Positions 49,903 to 58,804 of a DNA stretch of 64,000 nt are shown here, piece after piece. Numbering within the stretch: the first letter of the stretch is position 1; the number at the start of each line of letters is the position of its first letter. This DNA is from Bradyrhizobium sp. CB82. Lineage in GTDB: Bacteria > Pseudomonadota > Alphaproteobacteria > Rhizobiales > Xanthobacteraceae. The position numbers were made by a program, and so were the translations under genes. Under the pieces are notes generated by a model. That model had not been told where the DNA came from and searched no databases. It was given only the letters and a program-made list of their open reading frames with translations. The stretch is taken from contig NZ_CP121650.1 in assembly GCF_029714405.1 (NCBI RefSeq), positions 3,415,001 through 3,479,000 of the forward strand, in the 5' to 3' direction.

Positions 49903-50055
49903 CGACGTGGAGCGGTCGTCGGCGCCGTCTGCTGCAATAGTGTGCAAGGTTCGATGACAGCCTGACGAAACGAACGGCAAATTTGCAGTCTGGAAATCCG
50001 CGCCTCGACCGTTATGCTCGTTGCGCGGCCGGCTCCGCGCCGCGGGGGGAATGGC

Positions 50056-51177
50056 ATGCGCACAACATCGGTCGGCGTCGTTCGCATTGCCACCAAAGGG
50101 CCGGGCGATGTGGCGGGCCTTTTGGGGATGATCGAGCAGGGCGAGATCGATCCGCAGGCGATCCTCGCGATCCTGGGCAAGACCGAGGGTAATGGCGGCG
50201 TCAACGACTTCACGCGCGAGTACGCCGTGGCCGCACTCTGCATGGCGCTGGCGCCGCATGTCGGGCTCGAGCCTCATCAGGTCGAGCAGCGCATCGCGTT
50301 CGTGATGTCCGGCGGCACCGAAGGCGTGCTCAGCCCGCACATCACCGTTTTCACGCGCCAAAGCATCGCGATGGCGCCGGCTGGCCTTGCGGGAAAGCGG
50401 CTCAGCATCGGTATGGCACAGACCCGTGATTTTTTGCCCGAGGAGCTCGGTCGCAGCGCGCAGATCGAGCAAACTGCGAAAGCGGTGGTATCAGCCATGG
50501 CGGATGCCGGCATCACCGAACCGACGGATGTGCATTTCGTGCAGATCAAATGCCCGCTGCTGACCAGCGACCGTGTCGAGGCGGCCTCAGCGCGCGGCAA
50601 CACAACCGTGACAACAAGCGCCTACAGCTCGATGGCCTATTCGCGCGGCGCCTCCGCGCTTGGCGTCGCGGTGGCGCTCGGCGAGATCGAGGGCGTGATC
50701 CGCGACGAGGACGTGCTGCGGCGGTTCGATCTGTTCTCAAGCGTCGCCTCGACGTCGGCTGGGATCGAACTGATGCACAACGTCGTCATCGTGCTTGGCA
50801 ACTCGGTAACTTCGGCGAGCCCGTTCGAGATCGGTCATGCCGTCATGCGCGATGCTATCGACGCGGCTGCCGTGATCGAGGCGCTCGCAAGCGTGGGGCT
50901 AAAGGGCGGATCGACGGCGGAAGCGGGCCGCGAGCTCGTCAACATCTTCGCCAAGGCGGAGGCCTCGCCGAACGGCAGCGTCCGCGGCTTTCGTCACACG
51001 ATGCTGGAGGATACCGATATCAGCGCGACACGGCATGCCCGCGCTGCCGCTGGCGGCCTGATCGGCGGGCTTGCTGGAACCGGCGCCGTCTACGTCTCCG
51101 GCGGGGCCGAGCATCAGGGGCCTCCGGGCGGCGGCCCCGTTGCCGCCATCGTGCGGATCGCCGATGATTCCGATTGA
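50056..51177 (+). CDS. Cyanuric acid amidohydrolase/barbiturase-family enzyme
   Basis: A 373-residue ring-opening amidohydrolase of the AtzD/TrzD/barbiturase family. The three-fold repeated architecture is seen through its serine-lysine segments: IAFVMSGGTEGVLSPHITVF, HFVQIKCPLLTS, then SSMAYSRGASALGVAVALGE, and the C-terminal HTMLEDTDISATRHARAAAG. These enzymes open the ring of cyanuric acid (to carboxybiuret) or barbiturate (to ureidomalonate). Which of the two applies cannot be settled by eye. The start at 50056 follows GGGGGAATGGC. No biuret or allophanate hydrolase gene is adjacent. Confidence 0.9.
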   Translation: MRTTSVGVVRIATKGPGDVAGLLGMIEQGEIDPQAILAILGKTEGNGGVNDFTREYAVAALCMALAPHVGLEPHQVEQRIAFVMSGGTEGVLSPHITVFTRQSIAMAPAGLAGKRLSIGMAQTRDFLPEELGRSAQIEQTAKAVVSAMADAGITEPTDVHFVQIKCPLLTSDRVEAASARGNTTVTTSAYSSMAYSRGASALGVAVALGEIEGVIRDEDVLRRFDLFSSVASTSAGIELMHNVVIVLGNSVTSASPFEIGHAVMRDAIDAAAVIEALASVGLKGGSTAEAGRELVNIFAKAEASPNGSVRGFRHTMLEDTDISATRHARAAAGGLIGGLAGTGAVYVSGGAEHQGPPGGGPVAAIVRIADDSD

Positions 51178-51245: not shown

Positions 51246-51551
51246 TCACTTCGCGGCGCTGTTCACGCTACGATGCTGGATCGACACGGGAGCCGAAGTG
51301 AGCGTCGGCCCGGAGGCGCTTACGAGATCACTGCGCAGTGATGGCGAAGCCGCGTGAAGGGCGAAGATAATGGCAATCTGGGTCCGGTTCTGAAGGCGGT
51401 ATTTGCGCATGATGTTGCCGATATGCGCGCGAACCGTATTTTCGGAGATCTTGAGCTCGTAGGCGATGTTCTTGTTCTGCATGCCGCGGGCAATCAGCAT
51501 CATGAGCTCGCGCTCACGCGGCGTCGGTGTAATCGGTACGCTTGTAGTCAT
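51246..51551 (-). CDS. Orphan LuxR/GerE-type HTH regulator (101 aa)
   Basis: A short protein made only of a LuxR-type DNA-binding domain: ITPTPRERELMMLIARGMQN, KNIAYELKISENTVRAHIGN, IMRKYRLQNRTQIAIIFALH. There is no receiver or ligand domain, as in stand-alone GerE-like regulators. GGAGGAGTTGGTC before the ATG at 51551 fixes the start. It lies 48 bp after the MacB-like permease gene on the same strand and is probably the last gene of that operon. Confidence 0.88.
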   Translation of the reverse strand: MTTSVPITPTPRERELMMLIARGMQNKNIAYELKISENTVRAHIGNIMRKYRLQNRTQIAIIFALHAASPSLRSDLVSASGPTLTSAPVSIQHRSVNSAAK

Positions 51552-51599
51552 GACCAACTCCTCCCTGGCCTGAAGGTTCATTCGATCGCCCCAGCATTC

Positions 51600-52823
51600 T
51601 CACTCCACCTTGAGCGCTTCGATCGGACTGAGCTTGGAAGCCATGTGGGCGGGATAGAACCCGAAGATCACACCGGTCATGGCTGAAAATCCAACGGCAA
51701 GGCCAATCGACCGCATGTCGATCGCAGTGATCCAGCCGGCCAATCGCGCCACCGTCATCGACAGCGTGATGCCGCCGACGACACCGATGGCGCCACCAAG
51801 AAGACAAAGGACGAGAGCTTCACAAAGAAATTGCAAACGAATATCGCGCATCCGGCCACCGAGGGCGCGGCGAATTCCGATCTCTCGGGTACGTTCAGTG
51901 ACGGAAACGATCATCACGTTCATGATGCTGATGCCGCCGACGAGGAGCGAGACCGAGGCGATCGCGAACAGCAGCAGCGCCACGGTGCGGATGGCGCCCT
52001 GTTGCGCCTCCATGGCGGCCGCGGGATCCTGCACCTTGAAATCGTCGGCCTGGCCGGCGGGAATCCTGTGTCGTTGCCGCAGCAGGCCTTCGATCTCGCT
52101 GATCGCGCCCGCCATCTGAGTATCGGAGGCGACCTTGACGAGGATATAGGCGATGGCGTCCCGGTTGATACCGCTTGCGCTGCCGAGAAAGCGCAGCTTG
52201 GCCGTGGTCAGTGGGACGAAGGCGACATCGTCCTGCGAGGGCCCCTTGCGATCGAGCACGCCGATGACTTCGAGCGGGACCTGCATGATCCGGACTTGCG
52301 CGCCGATCGGATCGTCGCCCAGCGCGAACAACTCTTTGGCGGCGGCACTGCCGAGAATGACAACCTTCGCGGCGCTCGCTTCCTCGGCCGTGGAGAAGTA
52401 TCGACCGGACGACAATTGCCAGTCGCGCACCATGAAGTGCGATGTGGTCGTGCCGTTGATCGTGGTGTTCCAGTTCTTGCTTTCCCGGATGACTTGCGCT
52501 GTGCCCGAGACCGAACCTGCCGCGGTCTGGATCTCCGGAATCTGATCGAGGATCGCCTGCACGTCGCCCTCGGTCATCGTCAGCTTGGTGCCGGCCTTCA
52601 TGCGAACGGCACCCTGCTGGACCGCGCCCGGCATGATCATCAGCACGTTGGAGCCGATCGAACGGATCTGTTCCTCGACGCGAAGTTGTGCGCCCTTGCC
52701 GATGGCGAAGACGGTGACGATCGAGGCCACGCCGATCACGATGCCCAGGATGGTCAGGATGCTGCGCAGCGGGTTCAAGCGCAGCGCATGAAGGGCGGTC
52801 TGAAGGGCCTGATATGCCGTCAT
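51600..52823 (-). CDS. MacB-like ABC transporter permease
   Basis: A 407-residue MacB/FtsX-type permease. One N-terminal helix (LNPLRSILTILGIVIGVASI) is followed by a large periplasmic domain (residues ~50-275). Three C-terminal helices end the protein (VALLLFAIASVSLLVGGISI, MNVMIVSVTERTREIGIRRA coupling motif, LCLLGGAIGVVGGITLSM), with the tail ALKVE typical. Unlike E. coli MacB the ATPase is separate. It overlaps the ATPase gene by four bases and forms a tripartite exporter with the adaptor. Confidence 0.92.
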   Translation of the reverse strand: MTAYQALQTALHALRLNPLRSILTILGIVIGVASIVTVFAIGKGAQLRVEEQIRSIGSNVLMIMPGAVQQGAVRMKAGTKLTMTEGDVQAILDQIPEIQTAAGSVSGTAQVIRESKNWNTTINGTTTSHFMVRDWQLSSGRYFSTAEEASAAKVVILGSAAAKELFALGDDPIGAQVRIMQVPLEVIGVLDRKGPSQDDVAFVPLTTAKLRFLGSASGINRDAIAYILVKVASDTQMAGAISEIEGLLRQRHRIPAGQADDFKVQDPAAAMEAQQGAIRTVALLLFAIASVSLLVGGISIMNVMIVSVTERTREIGIRRALGGRMRDIRLQFLCEALVLCLLGGAIGVVGGITLSMTVARLAGWITAIDMRSIGLAVGFSAMTGVIFGFYPAHMASKLSPIEALKVE

Positions 52824-53542
52824 GATGCCCAGACCTTTTTCGGCATTGGATCACGTATCTCATCCGCGACGACCTCGCCGTCATGCAGGCGGATGGTTCG
52901 TTCGCAGCGCGCGGCCACGCTGGAATCGTGCGTGATCATCACGATGGTCTGGCCGCCGTCGTGGAGAGCGTCGAACAGGGCCAGAATCTCGGCGCCGGTC
53001 CGGCTGTCCAGCGCGCCGGTCGGCTCGTCCGCGAGCAAGATCGCAGGCGATGCGACGAGGGCCCGCGCGATCGCGATACGCTGCTGCTCGCCGCCGGAGA
53101 GCTGTCGCGGAAAATGCCGCGCCCGGTGCAGCATGCCGACCGCCTCAAGGCACTGTTCGGCACGCAGCATCCGCTGCTTGTGGCGGATGCCGCCATAAAC
53201 GAGCGGCAGCGCCACGTTCTCGAGCGCATTGTGGCGCGCGAGCAGATTGTAGGATTGGAACACGAAGCCGATGCTGTGCGCGCGCAATTCGGACCTGCGG
53301 TCATCAGGCAGGTCGGCGACGTCGCCGCCTTCCAGGAGGATCTCGCCCTCGCTCGGACGATCGAGTAGTCCGATCATGTTCATCAGGGTCGATTTCCCTG
53401 ACCCCGAAGGGCCCATGATGGCAAGGCTTTCGCCGCGCCGGATGTCGAAGCTGACGTCGCGCACCGCGGTCACCGCGACACCGTCGGTCCGGTAGGTGCG
53501 ACAGACCGATCTGAGGCTGACGAGTGCGGGGAGGGCTGTCAT
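52820..53542 (-). CDS. MacB-like ABC transporter ATP-binding protein
   Basis: A 240-residue ATPase of the LolD/MacB type. Motifs present: Walker A GPSGSGKST, Q-loop FVFQSYNLLARHNALENVAL, signature QLSGGEQQRIAIARAL, Walker B ILLADEPTGALD and the H-loop VMITHDSS. The start at 53542 overlaps the adaptor stop by four bases (ATGA), showing translational coupling. It powers export by the MacA/MacB-like system; the substrate is unknown. Confidence 0.95.
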   Translation of the reverse strand: MTALPALVSLRSVCRTYRTDGVAVTAVRDVSFDIRRGESLAIMGPSGSGKSTLMNMIGLLDRPSEGEILLEGGDVADLPDDRRSELRAHSIGFVFQSYNLLARHNALENVALPLVYGGIRHKQRMLRAEQCLEAVGMLHRARHFPRQLSGGEQQRIAIARALVASPAILLADEPTGALDSRTGAEILALFDALHDGGQTIVMITHDSSVAARCERTIRLHDGEVVADEIRDPMPKKVWAS

Positions 53543-54969
53543 GACCCGAACCTTATTCCAAGCAGTTCCATGCCCGCGGGCCGGATCGCCTGACCGACCG
53601 CCACCTGGCTGCCTTCGGTCAGGTCGCCGCTTTTGAGCGCGACCTGTTCGGCGCCGTCGGTGCCGACCGTGACAGCGATGCGCTTGAGTGAGCCCGTAGA
53701 CGTGCGCAGCCATACGCCGTCCCGGCTTTGGGTTGTGGACGGCTGCGTGCCGCTCGGCTGGAAGCGGAGCGCCGCGACCGGCACCTTCAGAACGTCGTCC
53801 TGGCGGTCGATCACGATCTTGACGAGCGCGGTCATGCCGGGAAGCAGCGCGCCGTCGAGATTGGAGGTCGACAGCACGACGGTATAGGTGACCACATTTT
53901 GCTGCGTCTTGGGCGCCTTGCGGACCTGCCGCACGACTGCCTCGAAGCGGCGGTCCGGATAGGAATCGACCGTGAAGTGCGCGCGCTGGCCGGCGGCGAT
54001 GCGTCCGATATCTGCCTCGTCGACCTGGGCGTGGATCTCCATGTCCTCGAGCCGGTGCGCCACCAGGAAGGCAGTTCGCGCCTCAAGACCGACCGCGAGC
54101 GTCTGTCCCTCGTTGATGAACCGGCCGACGACCACACCGTCAATCGGAGAGCGGATGATGGTGCGGTCGAGATCGGCCTCGGCGGCGCGGAGAATGGCCT
54201 CCTTCTCCGGCACGGCTGTCCTCGCCTGCTGGAGCTCGGCCTCGATCCGGCGCACGTCGGCGGTGGCACCTTCGACGGCGTAGGCGTTCAGGGTCACGAG
54301 AACCTCCGCCTCGCGCTCCTGTGCGAGGCGCGCGGTGAAATCGGTCTGCGCGTCCTCGACCGTCGTGGTCGCTACCACGTTCTGCGACTGTAACGCCAGT
54401 TTGCGCTGGAGCGTCCGCTGCGCCGAAGCCTTGACCGCCTGGGCGCTGTCCAGTTTGGCCGCCAGCACCGCCCTTGTGCCCTTCGCATTCTCAAGGTCGA
54501 TCTTGCCGCGGTCGAGCTTGGCTTGCTCCAGCTCGACATTGGCGCGCGCCATCTCGACCGCCGCCTTGGCTTCGTCGACCTTGGCCGCAAAGCTCCGCGG
54601 GTCGATCTGTGCCAGCGGCTGGTCCTTCCGCACATTGTCGTTGAAGTCGACGTGGACCTTCGAGATCTGCCCCGACAGTTGCGATCCCACTTCGATCGTC
54701 TTCACGGGCTGAAGCGCGCCGGTGACCGTGATCGTCTGTTCGATGCTGCCGCGCTGGATCGAGGCATAGCGGAACATCGGCGGGTCGGAGCCGATGGTCG
54801 GAGCTTCCTGCACGGCGGGCAGGATGGTCTGCGTGGTTGCGCGATAAGCGTGTCCGGCTCGGTTCGCGATCCACGTGGCCGAAGAGCGCATACCGGCGGG
54901 ATCAATGGCAAAACCCGCCGAAAATGCGGAAACGCCACCCAGCGCAATGAGGATCGGCACAAAACGCAT
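53539..54969 (-). CDS. MacA-like periplasmic adaptor (HlyD/RND family)
   Basis: A 476-residue membrane-fusion protein. It has an N-terminal anchor or signal (FVPILIALGGVSAFSAGFAI), then the lipoyl-half motif TVTGALQPVKTIEVGSQLSG, a long coiled-coil hairpin (residues ~125-245, rich in Ala/Glu/Lys), the second half TIIRSPIDGVVVGRFINEGQ, and beta-barrel segments (HAQVDEADIGRIAAGQRAHF). It should link the MacB-like pump to an outer-membrane channel. It is first in the operon and divergent from the response regulator and curlin cluster. Confidence 0.93.
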   Translation of the reverse strand: MRFVPILIALGGVSAFSAGFAIDPAGMRSSATWIANRAGHAYRATTQTILPAVQEAPTIGSDPPMFRYASIQRGSIEQTITVTGALQPVKTIEVGSQLSGQISKVHVDFNDNVRKDQPLAQIDPRSFAAKVDEAKAAVEMARANVELEQAKLDRGKIDLENAKGTRAVLAAKLDSAQAVKASAQRTLQRKLALQSQNVVATTTVEDAQTDFTARLAQEREAEVLVTLNAYAVEGATADVRRIEAELQQARTAVPEKEAILRAAEADLDRTIIRSPIDGVVVGRFINEGQTLAVGLEARTAFLVAHRLEDMEIHAQVDEADIGRIAAGQRAHFTVDSYPDRRFEAVVRQVRKAPKTQQNVVTYTVVLSTSNLDGALLPGMTALVKIVIDRQDDVLKVPVAALRFQPSGTQPSTTQSRDGVWLRTSTGSLKRIAVTVGTDGAEQVALKSGDLTEGSQVAVGQAIRPAGMELLGIRFGS

Positions 54970-55626
54970 ATTGAAACCCCGGCCTTATCAAAAAAGAAGA
55001 CCGTCATGCACAATTTCGCGCACAGGTAGTAATTTCCGTGCTCTCGCTTGACGGTCAAGCAATATGTCGCCGGTGTTAGGTCTCTGGACGTGTGCGCTCC
55101 CTGAAACAAACGTCAAGTTGTGAGTCGCCGAACCGCCACTTTTAGGATGGTGCATATACTCCGGGACTCGATCCGGACTCGGAATCGATCTTTCTCAATC
55201 ACTAATTGCAAGATGTGTTATGGTGTGGAGGGGTATGGGCCGGGCGGAGCATACTGATTTCTGTTCGTGGATGAGAGCGCGCCATGAGCACACGGGCGAC
55301 ACGGCAGCGGCTTCAGCACATTCGTCGCACGGAAGCCCGTGCTTCCGCATTCGGCGTGCTTTGTCATCTCTGCCGCGATAGTGCGATCTCGCTGACGATG
55401 AGAGATCTCCGTCAAATGCGGACCAGTGACGCGGTGCGCCGTTCGCCCGTGGGGGCGACGCTATCGATTTTCTTTTTGCCAAGAAGAAGCAAACGCAGGA
55501 AGTGTGAACTGGCCCGCAGATGTCACGACGCTGAATTAGTATGAATGTTTGATTGTATCGAGGAGCTGGGGCCCGTCGGTTCTCGCGAGATTACGACTCA
55601 ATTTTCAAATCTGGAGTCTCTGTGCC
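54970..55626. other. Divergent intergenic region between exporter operon and response regulator
   Basis: This 657-bp gap has lower G+C than its surroundings and must hold the promoters of both transcription units. A plus-strand frame at 55284-55544 is very Arg-rich, with no recognised domain and no binding site, so I do not call it. A short palindrome-like run (ACTCGATCCGGACTCGGAAT, from 55165) and A+T-rich stretches near 55195-55225 are candidate promoter elements. Confidence 0.4.
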
Positions 55627-56307
55627 ATGAGTACGAGCCCGGCAACGATTTATGTGATTGACGATGATGAGCAAATAAGGACATTGCTTGGAAATCTCTG
55701 CCATGACGCCGGACTTGAAGTGAAGCTGTTCGGTTCGACAGACGAGTTCTCGGCGGAGCAACTCTCCAATGGCCCATCGTGCCTGGTGCTCGACGTTCGC
55801 TTTCCTGGGACCTCGCCGACCGGGCTCGATCTGCAGCGAACGCTGGCCGACTCCGGGGTCCCGGTTCCGATCGTGTTCATCAGCGGTCATTCCGATATCC
55901 GCGTCTCCGTGGAGGCGATGAAGCGCGGAGCGGTGGAATTTCTGCCCAAGCCGTTTCGCGAGCAGGAGTTTCTCGACGCGGTGCGGCTCGGCGTGGAGCG
56001 CGACCGCAGGCGGCTGGAGCGCGAGCACGTCGTGCGCGAAGCTCGGCGGCGCTTCGAGGAGCTGACGGTGCGCGAACGCGACATATTGCTGCTGATGGCG
56101 GAGGGACTCGTCGCCAAGCAGATCGCGGCCAGGCTGAATGTCAGCGAAGTGACGGTGAAGGTGCACCGCGCGCGCATGATGCGGAAGCTGCAGATGCGCT
56201 CGCCGATCGAGGTTGTGAGGCTCGTCGACAGCATCAGGCCGGACGTTGCGACGATGCGTCAGCGCGCCGGTGCATCGAACGGAGCCGAAGTCACGCGCGG
56301 CATCTAG
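55627..56307 (+). CDS. FixJ/CsgD-like response regulator (receiver + LuxR HTH)
   Basis: A 226-residue two-component regulator. The receiver has the acidic pair in YVIDDDEQIRTLLGNL, the phospho-acceptor aspartate ~56 in SCLVLDVRFPG, the serine switch in VFISGHSD and the lysine in FLPKPFREQ, so it looks phosphorylatable. The LuxR-type HTH follows a basic linker (RRFEELTVRERDILLLMAEG, LVAKQIAARLNVSEVTVKVH). No sensor kinase gene is adjacent. It lies 122 bp before the first of four curlin-repeat genes on the same strand, a position like that of CsgD in curli systems, which suggests that it controls them. Confidence 0.9.
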   Translation: MSTSPATIYVIDDDEQIRTLLGNLCHDAGLEVKLFGSTDEFSAEQLSNGPSCLVLDVRFPGTSPTGLDLQRTLADSGVPVPIVFISGHSDIRVSVEAMKRGAVEFLPKPFREQEFLDAVRLGVERDRRRLEREHVVREARRRFEELTVRERDILLLMAEGLVAKQIAARLNVSEVTVKVHRARMMRKLQMRSPIEVVRLVDSIRPDVATMRQRAGASNGAEVTRGI

Positions 56308-56429
56308 TCCGTCCGGACTAGCATGAACCTCAGTCTATCAAGCGCCCCGTCGACGGTTCACAGTATCCCGCATGATGTCGCAGAGTTTTGCATACGACAT
56401 CGCTAACCTTGGCACGAAAGGGATACTCC

Positions 56430-56816
56430 ATGCGTAAGTTGATTCTCGCTTCCGTCGCACTGATCGCACTCACCGCCGGCGCCCGCGCCGACAATACCGC
56501 GACCACCTTCCAGATCGGCCTCGCAAATGGTTCCTCCGTGAACCAGCAGGGTCACGTGAACGACAGCTCGACCACGACTCAGGTCGGCTTCGTTAATGGT
56601 GCGCTCACGCTGCAAGGCACGACCACGCCTTCGCTCAACAACACCAGCACGGTGACTCAGGTCGGCGCCGCGAACGCGGCCGCTACCGGCCAGGTTGCGA
56701 CCGGCAACAACACCAGCTCGATCGGCCAGTTCTCGATCGGCGGCGCGCCGAACAACTTCGCTGCCGTTGGGCAGATCGGCGGCGGCGTCAACCTGAGCGG
56801 CATTGTGCAGCACTAA
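56430..56816 (+). CDS. Secreted curlin-repeat protein 1
   Basis: A 128-residue protein with a signal peptide (MRKLILASVALIALTAGARA) followed directly by curlin-type repeats of the form xQxGxxNxxxxxQ: TTFQIGLANGSSVNQQGHVN, TTTQVGFVNG, STVTQVGAANAAATGQ and SSIGQFSIG, ending AAVGQIGGGVNLSGIVQH. Such repeats stack as amyloid strands in CsgA/CsgB. The Asn/Gln/Gly/Thr-rich, low-charge mature part fits an extracellular fibre subunit. GGGATACTCC precedes the ATG. First of four tandem curlin-like genes. Confidence 0.85.
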   Translation: MRKLILASVALIALTAGARADNTATTFQIGLANGSSVNQQGHVNDSSTTTQVGFVNGALTLQGTTTPSLNNTSTVTQVGAANAAATGQVATGNNTSSIGQFSIGGAPNNFAAVGQIGGGVNLSGIVQH

Positions 56817-56831
56817 GCCAGCCCCGTACCT

Positions 56832-56864
56832 CCCTGGGCGCGTCACAGCGCCGGCGCGCCCGGG
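56832..56864. other. Hairpin between curlin-repeat genes 1 and 2
   Basis: CCC-T-GGGCGCG pairs with CGCGCCCGGG (10 bp with one bulged T, 12-base loop), 15 bases after the stop of gene 1. There is no T-run, so it may stabilise the upstream message or partly attenuate rather than terminate, giving more product of the first gene. Confidence 0.45.
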
Positions 56865-56940
56865 CCATGCTCCGAATTATTGCGATCACGCCTGTTGATG
56901 AAACGGCGGATCGACCAGTTGCTACTACGGAGGAATTCAC

Positions 56941-57333
56941 ATGCGGATCAATTATCTAGTCGCGACCGCCGTCATGTTCGGTGCGTTGACCTCTGTCGCT
57001 GCGAAAGCCGACAACACCGCCAGCGTGTTGCAGTTCGGTACGGCGAATTCTTCGTCTACAACGCAGACCGGCCCGGTGAACAACACCGCGACGACGCTGC
57101 AATTCGGTGCGAACAACCAGGCGACGAGCGTGCAGTTGGGATCACTATCGTCGGTCAATTCGGCGACGATCGGACAGGGCGGCACGATGCCTACCGCGAC
57201 CAACAATGCTGCGGTCGGTCAGGTCGGCGGTGCCAACACGAGCCTGATCGGTCAGATTGGCTTGAACAACACTGCCGCCGTCGGCCAACTCGGGATCCTG
57301 AACGGCTCCACGATTCTGCAGGCAGCTCCGTGA
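56941..57333 (+). CDS. Secreted curlin-repeat protein 2
   Basis: A 130-residue protein with a signal peptide (MRINYLVATAVMFGALTSVA, cleaved near AKA/DNTA). The repeats are ASVLQFGTANSSSTTQTGPV, ATTLQFGANNQATSVQLG, AAVGQVGGANTSLIGQIGLN and TAAVGQLGILNGSTILQ. Its mature start DNTA is the same as in protein 1, so the two are close paralogues. CGGAGGAATTCAC gives a strong ribosome binding site. It ends AAP. Confidence 0.87.
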   Translation: MRINYLVATAVMFGALTSVAAKADNTASVLQFGTANSSSTTQTGPVNNTATTLQFGANNQATSVQLGSLSSVNSATIGQGGTMPTATNNAAVGQVGGANTSLIGQIGLNNTAAVGQLGILNGSTILQAAP

Positions 57334-57377
57334 CCTGAGGTCCTGCCAAGATCTCGGCAACAATATGGAGGCATGTG

Positions 57378-57758
57378 ATGAACAAGCATCTTCTGATCGC
57401 TGCGATGGCAGTCCTCATCTCTTGTTGCGCAGCGAACGGCCCGGCGAAGGCGCAAAGCGCCGACATCAAGACGATCGTCTCGGTCAACGGGCCGCCAGTC
57501 GTCTTGAACCAAAGCAGCTCGACCAACATGGCCGGCATTTTCATGATCGGTGGCACGACCAGCGCGACCGTCACCCAGACCGGAACCAACAACGCCACCG
57601 GCGTGCTGCAGTTCGGCGGGACCAACGGCGCGGCGGTCGGTCAAACCGGAGCGTTGAACGTCACCTCAGTTGGGCAATTGGGTCAATTGAGCAATAGCAG
57701 CGCGGTGGCCCAGGCCGGCGGCATCAACCTTTCGAGCATCACTCAGATTGGACATTGA
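57378..57758 (+). CDS. Secreted curlin-repeat protein 3
   Basis: A 126-residue protein. The signal peptide MNKHLLIAAMAVLISCCAAN is cleaved near AKAQ; its SCC could alternatively be a lipobox. After a non-repeat N-terminal region (SADIKTIVSVNGPPVVLNQS) come the repeats ATVTQTGTNNATGVLQFGG, AAVGQTGALNVTSVGQLG and SAVAQAGGINLSSITQIGH. ATGGAGGCATGTG before ATG 57378 sets the start. It ends in TQIGH, like a curlin repeat cut at the last strand. Confidence 0.85.
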   Translation: MNKHLLIAAMAVLISCCAANGPAKAQSADIKTIVSVNGPPVVLNQSSSTNMAGIFMIGGTTSATVTQTGTNNATGVLQFGGTNGAAVGQTGALNVTSVGQLGQLSNSSAVAQAGGINLSSITQIGH

Positions 57759-57811
57759 GTCTGGAACTCCGATCTGAAGGCGTTTACATTCCGGAGCGTC
57801 AGGGGGCGGCC

Positions 57812-58264
57812 ATGAAATGGAGTGCTCAAGCCTCGATTTTCGCCGCACTCTTGGCCTCCGCGATCGGCGGGAGCTCGGCGGCATCAGCGGGCTCGATCAA
57901 GACCAGCCTATCGACGAGCGCGATCGATATCGAGACTGTGCTTGCCTCCGGCAATGATCCGGGCGCGGTGCAGGTCAAGGAAAGCAGTCAATTCAATTTC
58001 GCGAGGGTCATCGAGCTCGGTGGCACGAGTCCGTTCGATGCCACGATCATCCAGACCGGAACACAAAACTATGCCAGCGTCTACCAGACTGGCAGCACGA
58101 CCAGCGCCGCAATCGGTCAGTTTGGCGCGAGCAATACCGCCGAGGCCACGCAGCTCGGCAATGCCACCGGCGCGCTTCTCGTCCAGGTTGGTGAGATGAA
58201 CAAGGGAACGGTCAGTCAGTTCGGCCGCTTCAACTGGGCAGGCATCTTCCAGTTCGGGCGGTGA
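57812..58264 (+). CDS. Secreted curlin-repeat protein 4
   Basis: The longest of the set at 150 residues. The signal peptide is SIFAALLASAIGGSSAASAG. A ~45-residue N-terminal region without repeats (IKTSLSTSAIDIETVLASGN) is followed by ATIIQTGTQNYASVYQTGS, SAAIGQFGASNTAEATQLGN and TVSQFGRFNWAGIFQFGR. The Arg, Glu and Lys here are unusual for the set, and the terminal aromatic repeats resemble a CsgB-like nucleator; that role is inferred. GGGGGCGGCC precedes ATG 57812. Confidence 0.82.
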   Translation: MKWSAQASIFAALLASAIGGSSAASAGSIKTSLSTSAIDIETVLASGNDPGAVQVKESSQFNFARVIELGGTSPFDATIIQTGTQNYASVYQTGSTTSAAIGQFGASNTAEATQLGNATGALLVQVGEMNKGTVSQFGRFNWAGIFQFGR

Positions 58265-58280
58265 TCGGAAGAGGCGCGTC

Positions 58281-58583
58281 ATGAAGCTCATTCTGTTTGC
58301 AGCAGGAGTGGCGATGATGATGTCTGGTGGAACGGGACCGGTGTCGGCAGGCGGCAGTGATGGAGACGGTCACACGACGATCGTCCAGGACGCCAACGGC
58401 CAGACGGTGATCACCCAGAGCGGCGATCCCGCCCGGGCCGAGGTGCGCATCGTGAAAGAGCCCGGACGGACGACCGTCTACCGCAAGAGCGGCGGCAACA
58501 CCGCCGTCGTGACCCAGAGCACGGATCCGGCGGACCTTCCACCGAACCTGGGCGAATGGTTGCAAGGCCTGTCCGGACGGTGA
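58281..58583 (+). CDS. Small secreted protein at the end of the curlin cluster
   Basis: A 100-residue exported protein: signal peptide MKLILFAAGVAMMMSGGTGP, then HTTIVQDANGQTVITQSGDP, RAEVRIVKEPGRTTVYRKSG and NTAVVTQSTDP, ending PPNLGEWLQGLSGR. It has alternating polar/hydrophobic strands with TQS-type motifs but lacks real curlin repeats and is charged. It follows curlin gene 4 by 16 bp, so it is likely co-transcribed. It could be an accessory or chaperone-like factor; it does not resemble CsgC, CsgE, CsgF or CsgG as I know them. Confidence 0.7.
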   Translation: MKLILFAAGVAMMMSGGTGPVSAGGSDGDGHTTIVQDANGQTVITQSGDPARAEVRIVKEPGRTTVYRKSGGNTAVVTQSTDPADLPPNLGEWLQGLSGR

Positions 58584-58600: not shown

Positions 58601-58804
58601 CTACCGGCTCGCGCCGTTTGGCTCCACGACCTGCTGCTCGACCAGCGTCAGACCTCCGGGCAGTGCCGCGGAGAGCAGCTTGTTGGCGACGCTGCTGGCC
58701 TCTTGAACCGTGAAGTTTCCTGAAATCTGCCCTTGGCCACCGGTGATCAGCTCGCGGATGACGGGCGCCGAGAGCACCTTGTCGTCGAGCACCGGGTGCA
58801 GGCG
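58601..58804 (-). pseudogene. SecD C-terminal-type fragment
   Basis: The frame reads LHPVLDDKVLSAPVIRELIT, GGQGQISGNFTVQEASSVAN and KLLSAALPGGLTLVEQQVVE. This is the P1-head/first-helix region of SecD (LDxKVxSAPVIxxxIxGGxGQISGxFT). A stop codon lies in frame seven codons before the similarity begins, and SecD is normally over 500 residues, so only this piece survives, although it ends at its own stop. It converges on the curlin cluster. Confidence 0.7.

Follow-up and report, generated by a model that had tools for sequence, protein, structure and literature searches.

A conserved curlin-repeat gene block of Bradyrhizobium with a divergent MacAB-type transporter as its candidate exporter

Genes of the block

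The stretch of DNA analysed here (the window, 64,000 nucleotides of Bradyrhizobium sp. CB82, contig NZ_CP121650.1) carries four tandem genes for curlin-repeat proteins, named A1 to A4, together with a divergently encoded MacAB-type transporter. The plus-strand row begins with a response regulator (55627-56307), continues through A1 (56430-56816), A2 (56941-57333), A3 (57378-57758) and A4 (57812-58264), and closes with a small exported protein, c0 (58281-58583). An earlier note, made from the sequence alone, had described four exported curlin-repeat proteins and a further small exported protein behind them, with a regulator in front, and all these frames are in place. The hidden Markov model check of Curlin_rpt (PF07012) that it proposed was run, and at the curated Pfam cut-off of 20.7 bits the repeats are confirmed in all four proteins, with 22.2 bits for A1 (128 aa), 47.4 for A2 (130 aa), 28.7 for A3 (126 aa) and 48.4 for A4 (150 aa, with a conserved C-terminus), and two to three repeat stretches in each. 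When the genome was searched in six frames with this model, three matches were obtained at E 0.001, all within this cluster (A2 and A4).

The signal peptides of A1-A4 and c0 were assigned by eye; that of A3 has an AxA site, and in A1 the repeats start right at the beginning of the mature part. A role of A3 as a lipoprotein anchor was considered and rejected, a lipobox-like pattern being present in just 4 of 34 orthologues. The earlier reading depended on compatibility with a beta-solenoid, and the structure model of A4 is indeed a CsgA-like beta-solenoid; Foldseek alone placed the CsgA fibril weakly (E 0.48). The A4 protein is possibly a CsgB-like (nucleator) subunit. The median ratio of nonsynonymous to synonymous substitution rates (dN/dS) is 0.35 for A1, 0.23 for A2 and 0.26 for A3, lies between 0.19 and 0.35 overall, and exceeds 1 in none of the usable pairs. 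Because the order of the A1-A4 orthologues is kept in relatives and dN/dS is this low, the curlin row goes beyond chance, and this is a genuine, conserved locus that evolves under selection.

The MacAB half lies on the minus strand. It encodes a MacA-type periplasmic adaptor of the HlyD family (53539-54969, 476 aa; PF16576 and PF13437 over cut-off), a separate ATP-binding cassette (ABC) ATPase of the MacB/LolD group (52820-53542; PF00005, 120.5 bits) and a MacB-type permease without an ATPase domain (51600-52823, 407 aa; MacB_PCD PF12704, 158 bits, and FtsX PF02687, 66 bits), with four-base overlaps between the adaptor and ATPase genes and between the ATPase and permease genes. The ATPase start was set at 53542 by comparison with 241-aa orthologues. 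The adaptor passes the RND_mfp model (146.5 bits, cut-off 94.9) and stays below the MacA equivalog (129 bits, cut-off 342). ATPase and permease are not fused here but stand in separate frames, which score 236.6 bits (ATPase, matching the N-terminal part of NCBIfam MacB) and 223.5 bits (permease) against the MacB equivalog cut-off of 966. The best solved relative of the permease is MacB 5gko (E 1.4e-61) and those of the adaptor are MacA 9qgy and 5nik; 5gko and 5nik presumably come from Acinetobacter and E. coli.

Two regulatory proteins accompany these genes. The product of the first plus-strand gene (226 aa) is a FixJ/NarL-type response regulator with a full receiver (PF00072, 71.9 bits) and a GerE helix-turn-helix (HTH; PF00196, 64.1 bits), and the receiver residues read from the sequence are present (acidic cluster 12-14, D56, S86 and K108). 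The earlier note had called it CsgD-like. Its best named match is FixJ at 162.5 bits, below the 255-bit cut-off, and the CsgD model is absent from the 25 best of the 104 families matched, so that the CsgD-like label is unsupported and this candidate was ruled out. Of the fibre module proposed in the note, the curlin subunits without CsgG stood and the CsgD-like regulator did not, and the divergent MacAB half had been overlooked. The second protein is a solo LuxR-type (GerE) HTH protein of 111 aa (51246-51581, minus strand; PF00196, 68 bits), in which a receiver domain was looked for without a match.

The c0 protein (100 aa) has no Pfam or NCBIfam family over the cut-off, the search giving sub-cut-off noise only. 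It has the conserved motifs SGDP, PGRT and GGNTA and a predicted C-terminal helix; its structure model, a moderate one (mean pLDDT, the predicted local distance difference test, 68), comprises five strands and one helix and found no fold match in the PDB at E 0.001. Identification of c0 as CsgH or another known fold was therefore rejected, a CsgA sequence echo being weak (E 0.11). The candidates scored include 313 homologues, and among the 120 listed no Pfam domain was found and the named organisms are Bradyrhizobium. Across 323 genomes of the family, c0 occurs in 15, comprising 12 of the genus, two of genus g136 and one of a third genus. The relatives in both g136 genomes adjoin curlins, and the third-genus match is weak (E 2.6e-4), with no curlins in its stretch. 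At L186:7330-9876, in a g136 genome, a curlin and a relative of c0 are found near a CsgG-like gene (62.9 bits).

The host genome consists of two contigs, 10.14 Mb in all, and is rated 100% complete. The genome-wide check for curli machinery that the note had suggested found nothing for CsgG, CsgF and CsgH (no match each; CsgE and CsgC were not searched). Among the controls, E. coli was recovered in the CsgG and CsgF searches, and the CsgH model (PF21112) matched 0 of 14 control genomes and 8 of the 146 genomes sampled in the genus. CsgE is reported as missing in Alphaproteobacteria in part of Dueholm 2012 (PMC3521004). Since several defining csg features failed, the locus is not filed as a csg operon; it is probably a curlin-subunit system that works like curli with a different exporter.

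Distribution of the block and other curlin arrangements

In the genus sample of 146 genomes, curlin repeats occur in 50 and CsgG in seven. MacA orthologues of at least 74% identity are present in 41 genomes, one of them partial (G111, residues 1-341), and the next best MacA reaches 44%, once a fragment of 115 residues in G047 and the additional copy carried by the window's genome are set aside. All 41 have curlin matches, within about 5 kb of MacA by coordinates, and CsgG or CsgH was found in none of them. The association has a Fisher p of 7.7e-28, uncorrected for shared descent. The complete block was read in 34 of the 41 genomes (33 fetched loci plus the window). Of the nine remaining curlin genomes, five have CsgG (G028, G032, G050, G052 and G098) and three have only an autotransporter-type cluster (G059, G071 and G117); the ninth, G145, holds a remnant (locus L050) that fits a single deletion with one end within macB and the other within A4. 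Genome G409, which is not in the sample, retains only part of c0 between the usual neighbours.

The same picture comes from 49 named loci with a c0 relative, a set that overlaps in genomes with loci L021-L056 and is not independent of them. In 44 of these, the window type, the ATPase, MacA, the regulator, A1-A4 and c0 all stand in the same order, and the permease and the solo HTH protein are found in 43, because the L121 contig breaks off within the ATPase gene. The remaining five have no block and belong by their c0 relative to the type with c26, the diverged c0 relative of autotransporter-type curlin clusters. Among the 36 loci L021-L056, the block is present in 33, the exceptions being two loci with the autotransporter type of cluster (L032 and L037) and the remnant L050 named above; the A4 of L031 fell under the tblastn filter and was recovered by blastp at 42%.

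In most relatives the block is flanked by c8 and c14 at one end and by c1 and c6 at the other. Different neighbours surround it in the window, L026 and L122 (and, on the c0 side, in L121), so that the block was probably relocated or gained in one piece. The c1 gene stands beside c0 in most relatives, is absent from the window's clade, and was left out of the block.

The order sample of 347 genomes shows how curlins are arranged elsewhere, with curlin repeats in 68 genomes and CsgG in 35. Outside the genus, 38 genomes have curlins without CsgG, and stretches were inspected from 34 of them, the matches of the other four being too weak for positions to be given. A CsgH gene is present in all 34, in 33 of them beside the curlins and in L194 at a distance of about 9 kb; the CsgH model of this comparison was built from nine proteins, eight of which come from these same stretches. 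No c0 (E 0.001), MacA or MacB (E 1e-20) was found in the 34 stretches. At looser settings, marginal c0 matches appeared in L115 (E 0.0016) and L119 (E 0.0025), and a 30% MacA match appeared in L118, none of which passes its threshold. The window type is therefore a third arrangement, seen in this analysis in a single genus.

The autotransporter-linked cluster was found at L037:7148-13009 and also in L032, L057, L058, L059 and L066, and its type is present in five CsgG-less genomes of the genus (G047, G059, G066, G071 and G117). It contains curlins, c26 and a curlin-repeat protein fused to a beta-barrel (PF03797, 133 bits), whose Curlin_rpt score of 19.3 is just below the cut-off; some of these clusters have a patatin-like gene and a tandem duplication. 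No curlin-autotransporter fusion was found in the window's genome. In the CsgG-type loci of the genus at L068:9432-11150 and L069:8555-10405, the curlins are 572 and 616 aa long with about 25 repeat motifs, and CsgH is nearby.

Possible routes of curlin export

In many Alphaproteobacteria only the curlin subunits can be identified, so that other proteins must replace the Csg machinery, as stated in part of Dueholm 2012 (PMC3521004), and an excerpt of a 2023 survey counts 1033 of 43279 CsgA-bearing genomes without CsgG (PMC10192328). The literature searched, incomplete in coverage, gave no paper joining curlin and MacAB export, though both words occur in PMC12291844, by its title an inventory of E. 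coli genes. Taken together, the locus may be a Bradyrhizobium curli-like fibre system that lacks the known secretion machinery and has a dedicated MacAB-type exporter instead, a reading to which we give an even chance. Its broader form, a second, CsgG-independent curli pathway whose amyloid subunits leave through a dedicated pump of the split MacAB type, with the c0 family as assembly factor, is offered more tentatively, at somewhat less than even probability.

In such a system, control of the divergent operon pair would fall to the response regulator, probably joined by the solo HTH protein. The Sec pathway would deliver the four curlin subunits and c0 into the periplasm, where c0 may act as a chaperone, a cap or a nucleating subunit. 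The MacA adaptor, the MacB-type permease and the separate ATPase would dock on an outer-membrane factor whose gene lies elsewhere, collect the periplasmic subunits and push them out, and the exported subunits would assemble outside as beta-solenoid fibres. That this pump exports the curlins is a step that we infer from gene linkage. It would follow a described route, for enterotoxin STII is carried by Sec to the periplasm and then leaves via MacAB-TolC, and MacB accepts its substrates in the periplasm (PMC5985334, in part), which fits Sec-exported curlins.

The locus can be set beside four known systems. With the E. coli curli and the csgG/csgF/csgH loci of Bradyrhizobium, it has in common several curlin-repeat subunits, Sec signals and a predicted beta-solenoid, but it differs from them by the absence of CsgG, CsgF and CsgH matches, by its FixJ-like regulator, by the MacAB-type transporter and c0, and by four fixed subunits. 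The CsgA-CsgH-CsgB loci without CsgG, of which the 34 inspected resemble the csgH-bearing loci in part of Dueholm 2012 (PMC3521004), likewise have curlins without CsgG, whereas they carry CsgH in the stretch and neither MacAB nor c0. The transporter has the MacA adaptor, the MacB periplasmic core with the FtsX permease and the MacB-group ATPase in common with MacAB-TolC, as well as, in the text seen of PMC5985334, the uptake of periplasmic substrates by MacB; unlike that pump, it has its ATPase in a separate gene (as in LolCDE), is linked to curlins and has no outer-membrane factor gene alongside. Finally, the autotransporter-linked clusters also lack CsgG and have one or two curlins and the small c26 homologous to c0, but they differ by curlin repeats fused to the PF03797 barrel and by having no MacAB in the stretch.

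Several observations weigh against a dedicated exporter, and they are best considered together with the chief alternative, in which the two operons are regulatory neighbours that share a regulator and a stress response, the MacAB pump has another substrate, be it a small molecule, a peptide or a lipid, and the curlins exit by an unrecognised route. The best-known substrates of MacB pumps are small. A second HTH-MacB-ATPase-MacA copy in the same genome (L065:7641-11123), with 97.5% DNA identity over 3.5 kb to 51334-54813, has no curlins and no regulator beside it. Relatives of MacA occur in other genera, those named among 120 listed of 3974 matches being Pseudolabrys (65%), Methylobacterium (55-61%) and Beijerinckia (55%). 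A plasmid search with MacA gave no match at E 1e-80; with MacB, five relatives passed E 1e-90, all from Mesorhizobium and Azospirillum. The MacAB sets of two of these five were inspected, one on a plasmid of each genus (MacA 37-38%), and no curlins lie nearby, so a wider MacAB-curlin link on plasmids was rejected. In the CsgH-type loci examined, curlins stand without CsgG and without nearby MacAB, which means that MacAB linkage is no general rule for CsgG-less curlins. The cluster itself has no TolC-type gene; about five OEP-domain frames elsewhere mean that an outer-membrane partner exists in principle. The whole phyletic basis of the link is related species, the Fisher p being inflated by shared descent (one genus and mostly one syntenic site), and the MacA scan of the genus scored 11 first-look candidates per genome. 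In genome G575 of g136, a c0 relative lies about 1.4 kb from a CsgG-like gene of 62.9 bits, so that c0 is curlin-associated and not limited to CsgG-less systems. The placing of the divergent operons on either side of the response regulator suits regulatory neighbours as well, and the MacB family exports antibiotics and siderophores according to part of PMC5985334. Against that explanation stand the curlins in 41 of 41 genomes with this MacA, the joint relocation of the block in one clade, and the fact that the other exporter it needs was not identified. We regard it as quite possible, with clearly less than an even chance.

Two further explanations are less probable. A diverged CsgG-like pore, or a quite different one, could export the curlins from elsewhere in the genome with MacAB incidental; the CsgH-type loci, if functional, imply that another route must exist, and alternative proteins were also inferred in the portion seen of Dueholm 2012 (PMC3521004). 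This is improbable, as the CsgG model scores the divergent G575 protein at 62.9 bits and yet finds no match in this genome, and the MacAB linkage would be left unexplained. It is very improbable that, instead of being secreted as fibre subunits, the curlins stay in the periplasm or at the outer membrane and have no amyloid role: four paralogues are under purifying selection and A4 has a CsgA-like model, set against the missing known export machinery (CsgG, CsgF and CsgH) and the lack of any report of such fibres in the literature searched.

The locus gives concrete candidates for one group, namely a MacAB-type exporter and one unnamed small protein family, and the linkage of curlins and transporter in its relatives suggests a second bacterial way to build surface amyloid. 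If the MacAB-type pump does export the curlins, this would show for one genus which proteins stand in for the Csg machinery in curlin-only Alphaproteobacteria, a question that dates from 2012, and the export of amyloid subunits from the periplasm would widen the known substrate range of MacB-family transporters.

Intergenic DNA and flanking features

The MacA and response-regulator genes diverge from an intergenic region of 657 bases (54970-55626); in 44 relatives it measures 511-684 bases, with patchy conservation. Upstream of A1, the inverted repeat GATGTCG-N14-CGACATC (56374-56401) keeps its left arm in a 45-sequence alignment and its right arm mostly with one change; it may be a site for the regulator or an RNA hairpin. 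At the end of the regulator gene lies a perfect 7-base inverted repeat, CTAGTCC...GGACTAG (56304-56321), which the consensus of the relatives does not keep as a repeat.

On plasmids, A4 matches a single one, from Indioceanicola, whose curlins are long and whose stretch gave no match to MacAB; the plasmid of Indioceanicola profundi (L193:5545-8086), almost without annotation in the collection used, has three curlin-repeat frames of 186-380 aa. Next to the block in the window, and also in L026 and L122, is a gene for a ring-opening cyanuric acid amidohydrolase (AtzD/TrzD; 50014-51177, plus strand; 521.7 bits, cut-off 360). On the other side, a 63-aa frame on the minus strand (58601-58792) is like the head of the SecDF P1 domain (48 bits) and resembles a SecD fragment adjoining the cluster; the similarity of the window to L026, L121 and L122 runs on to 58792.

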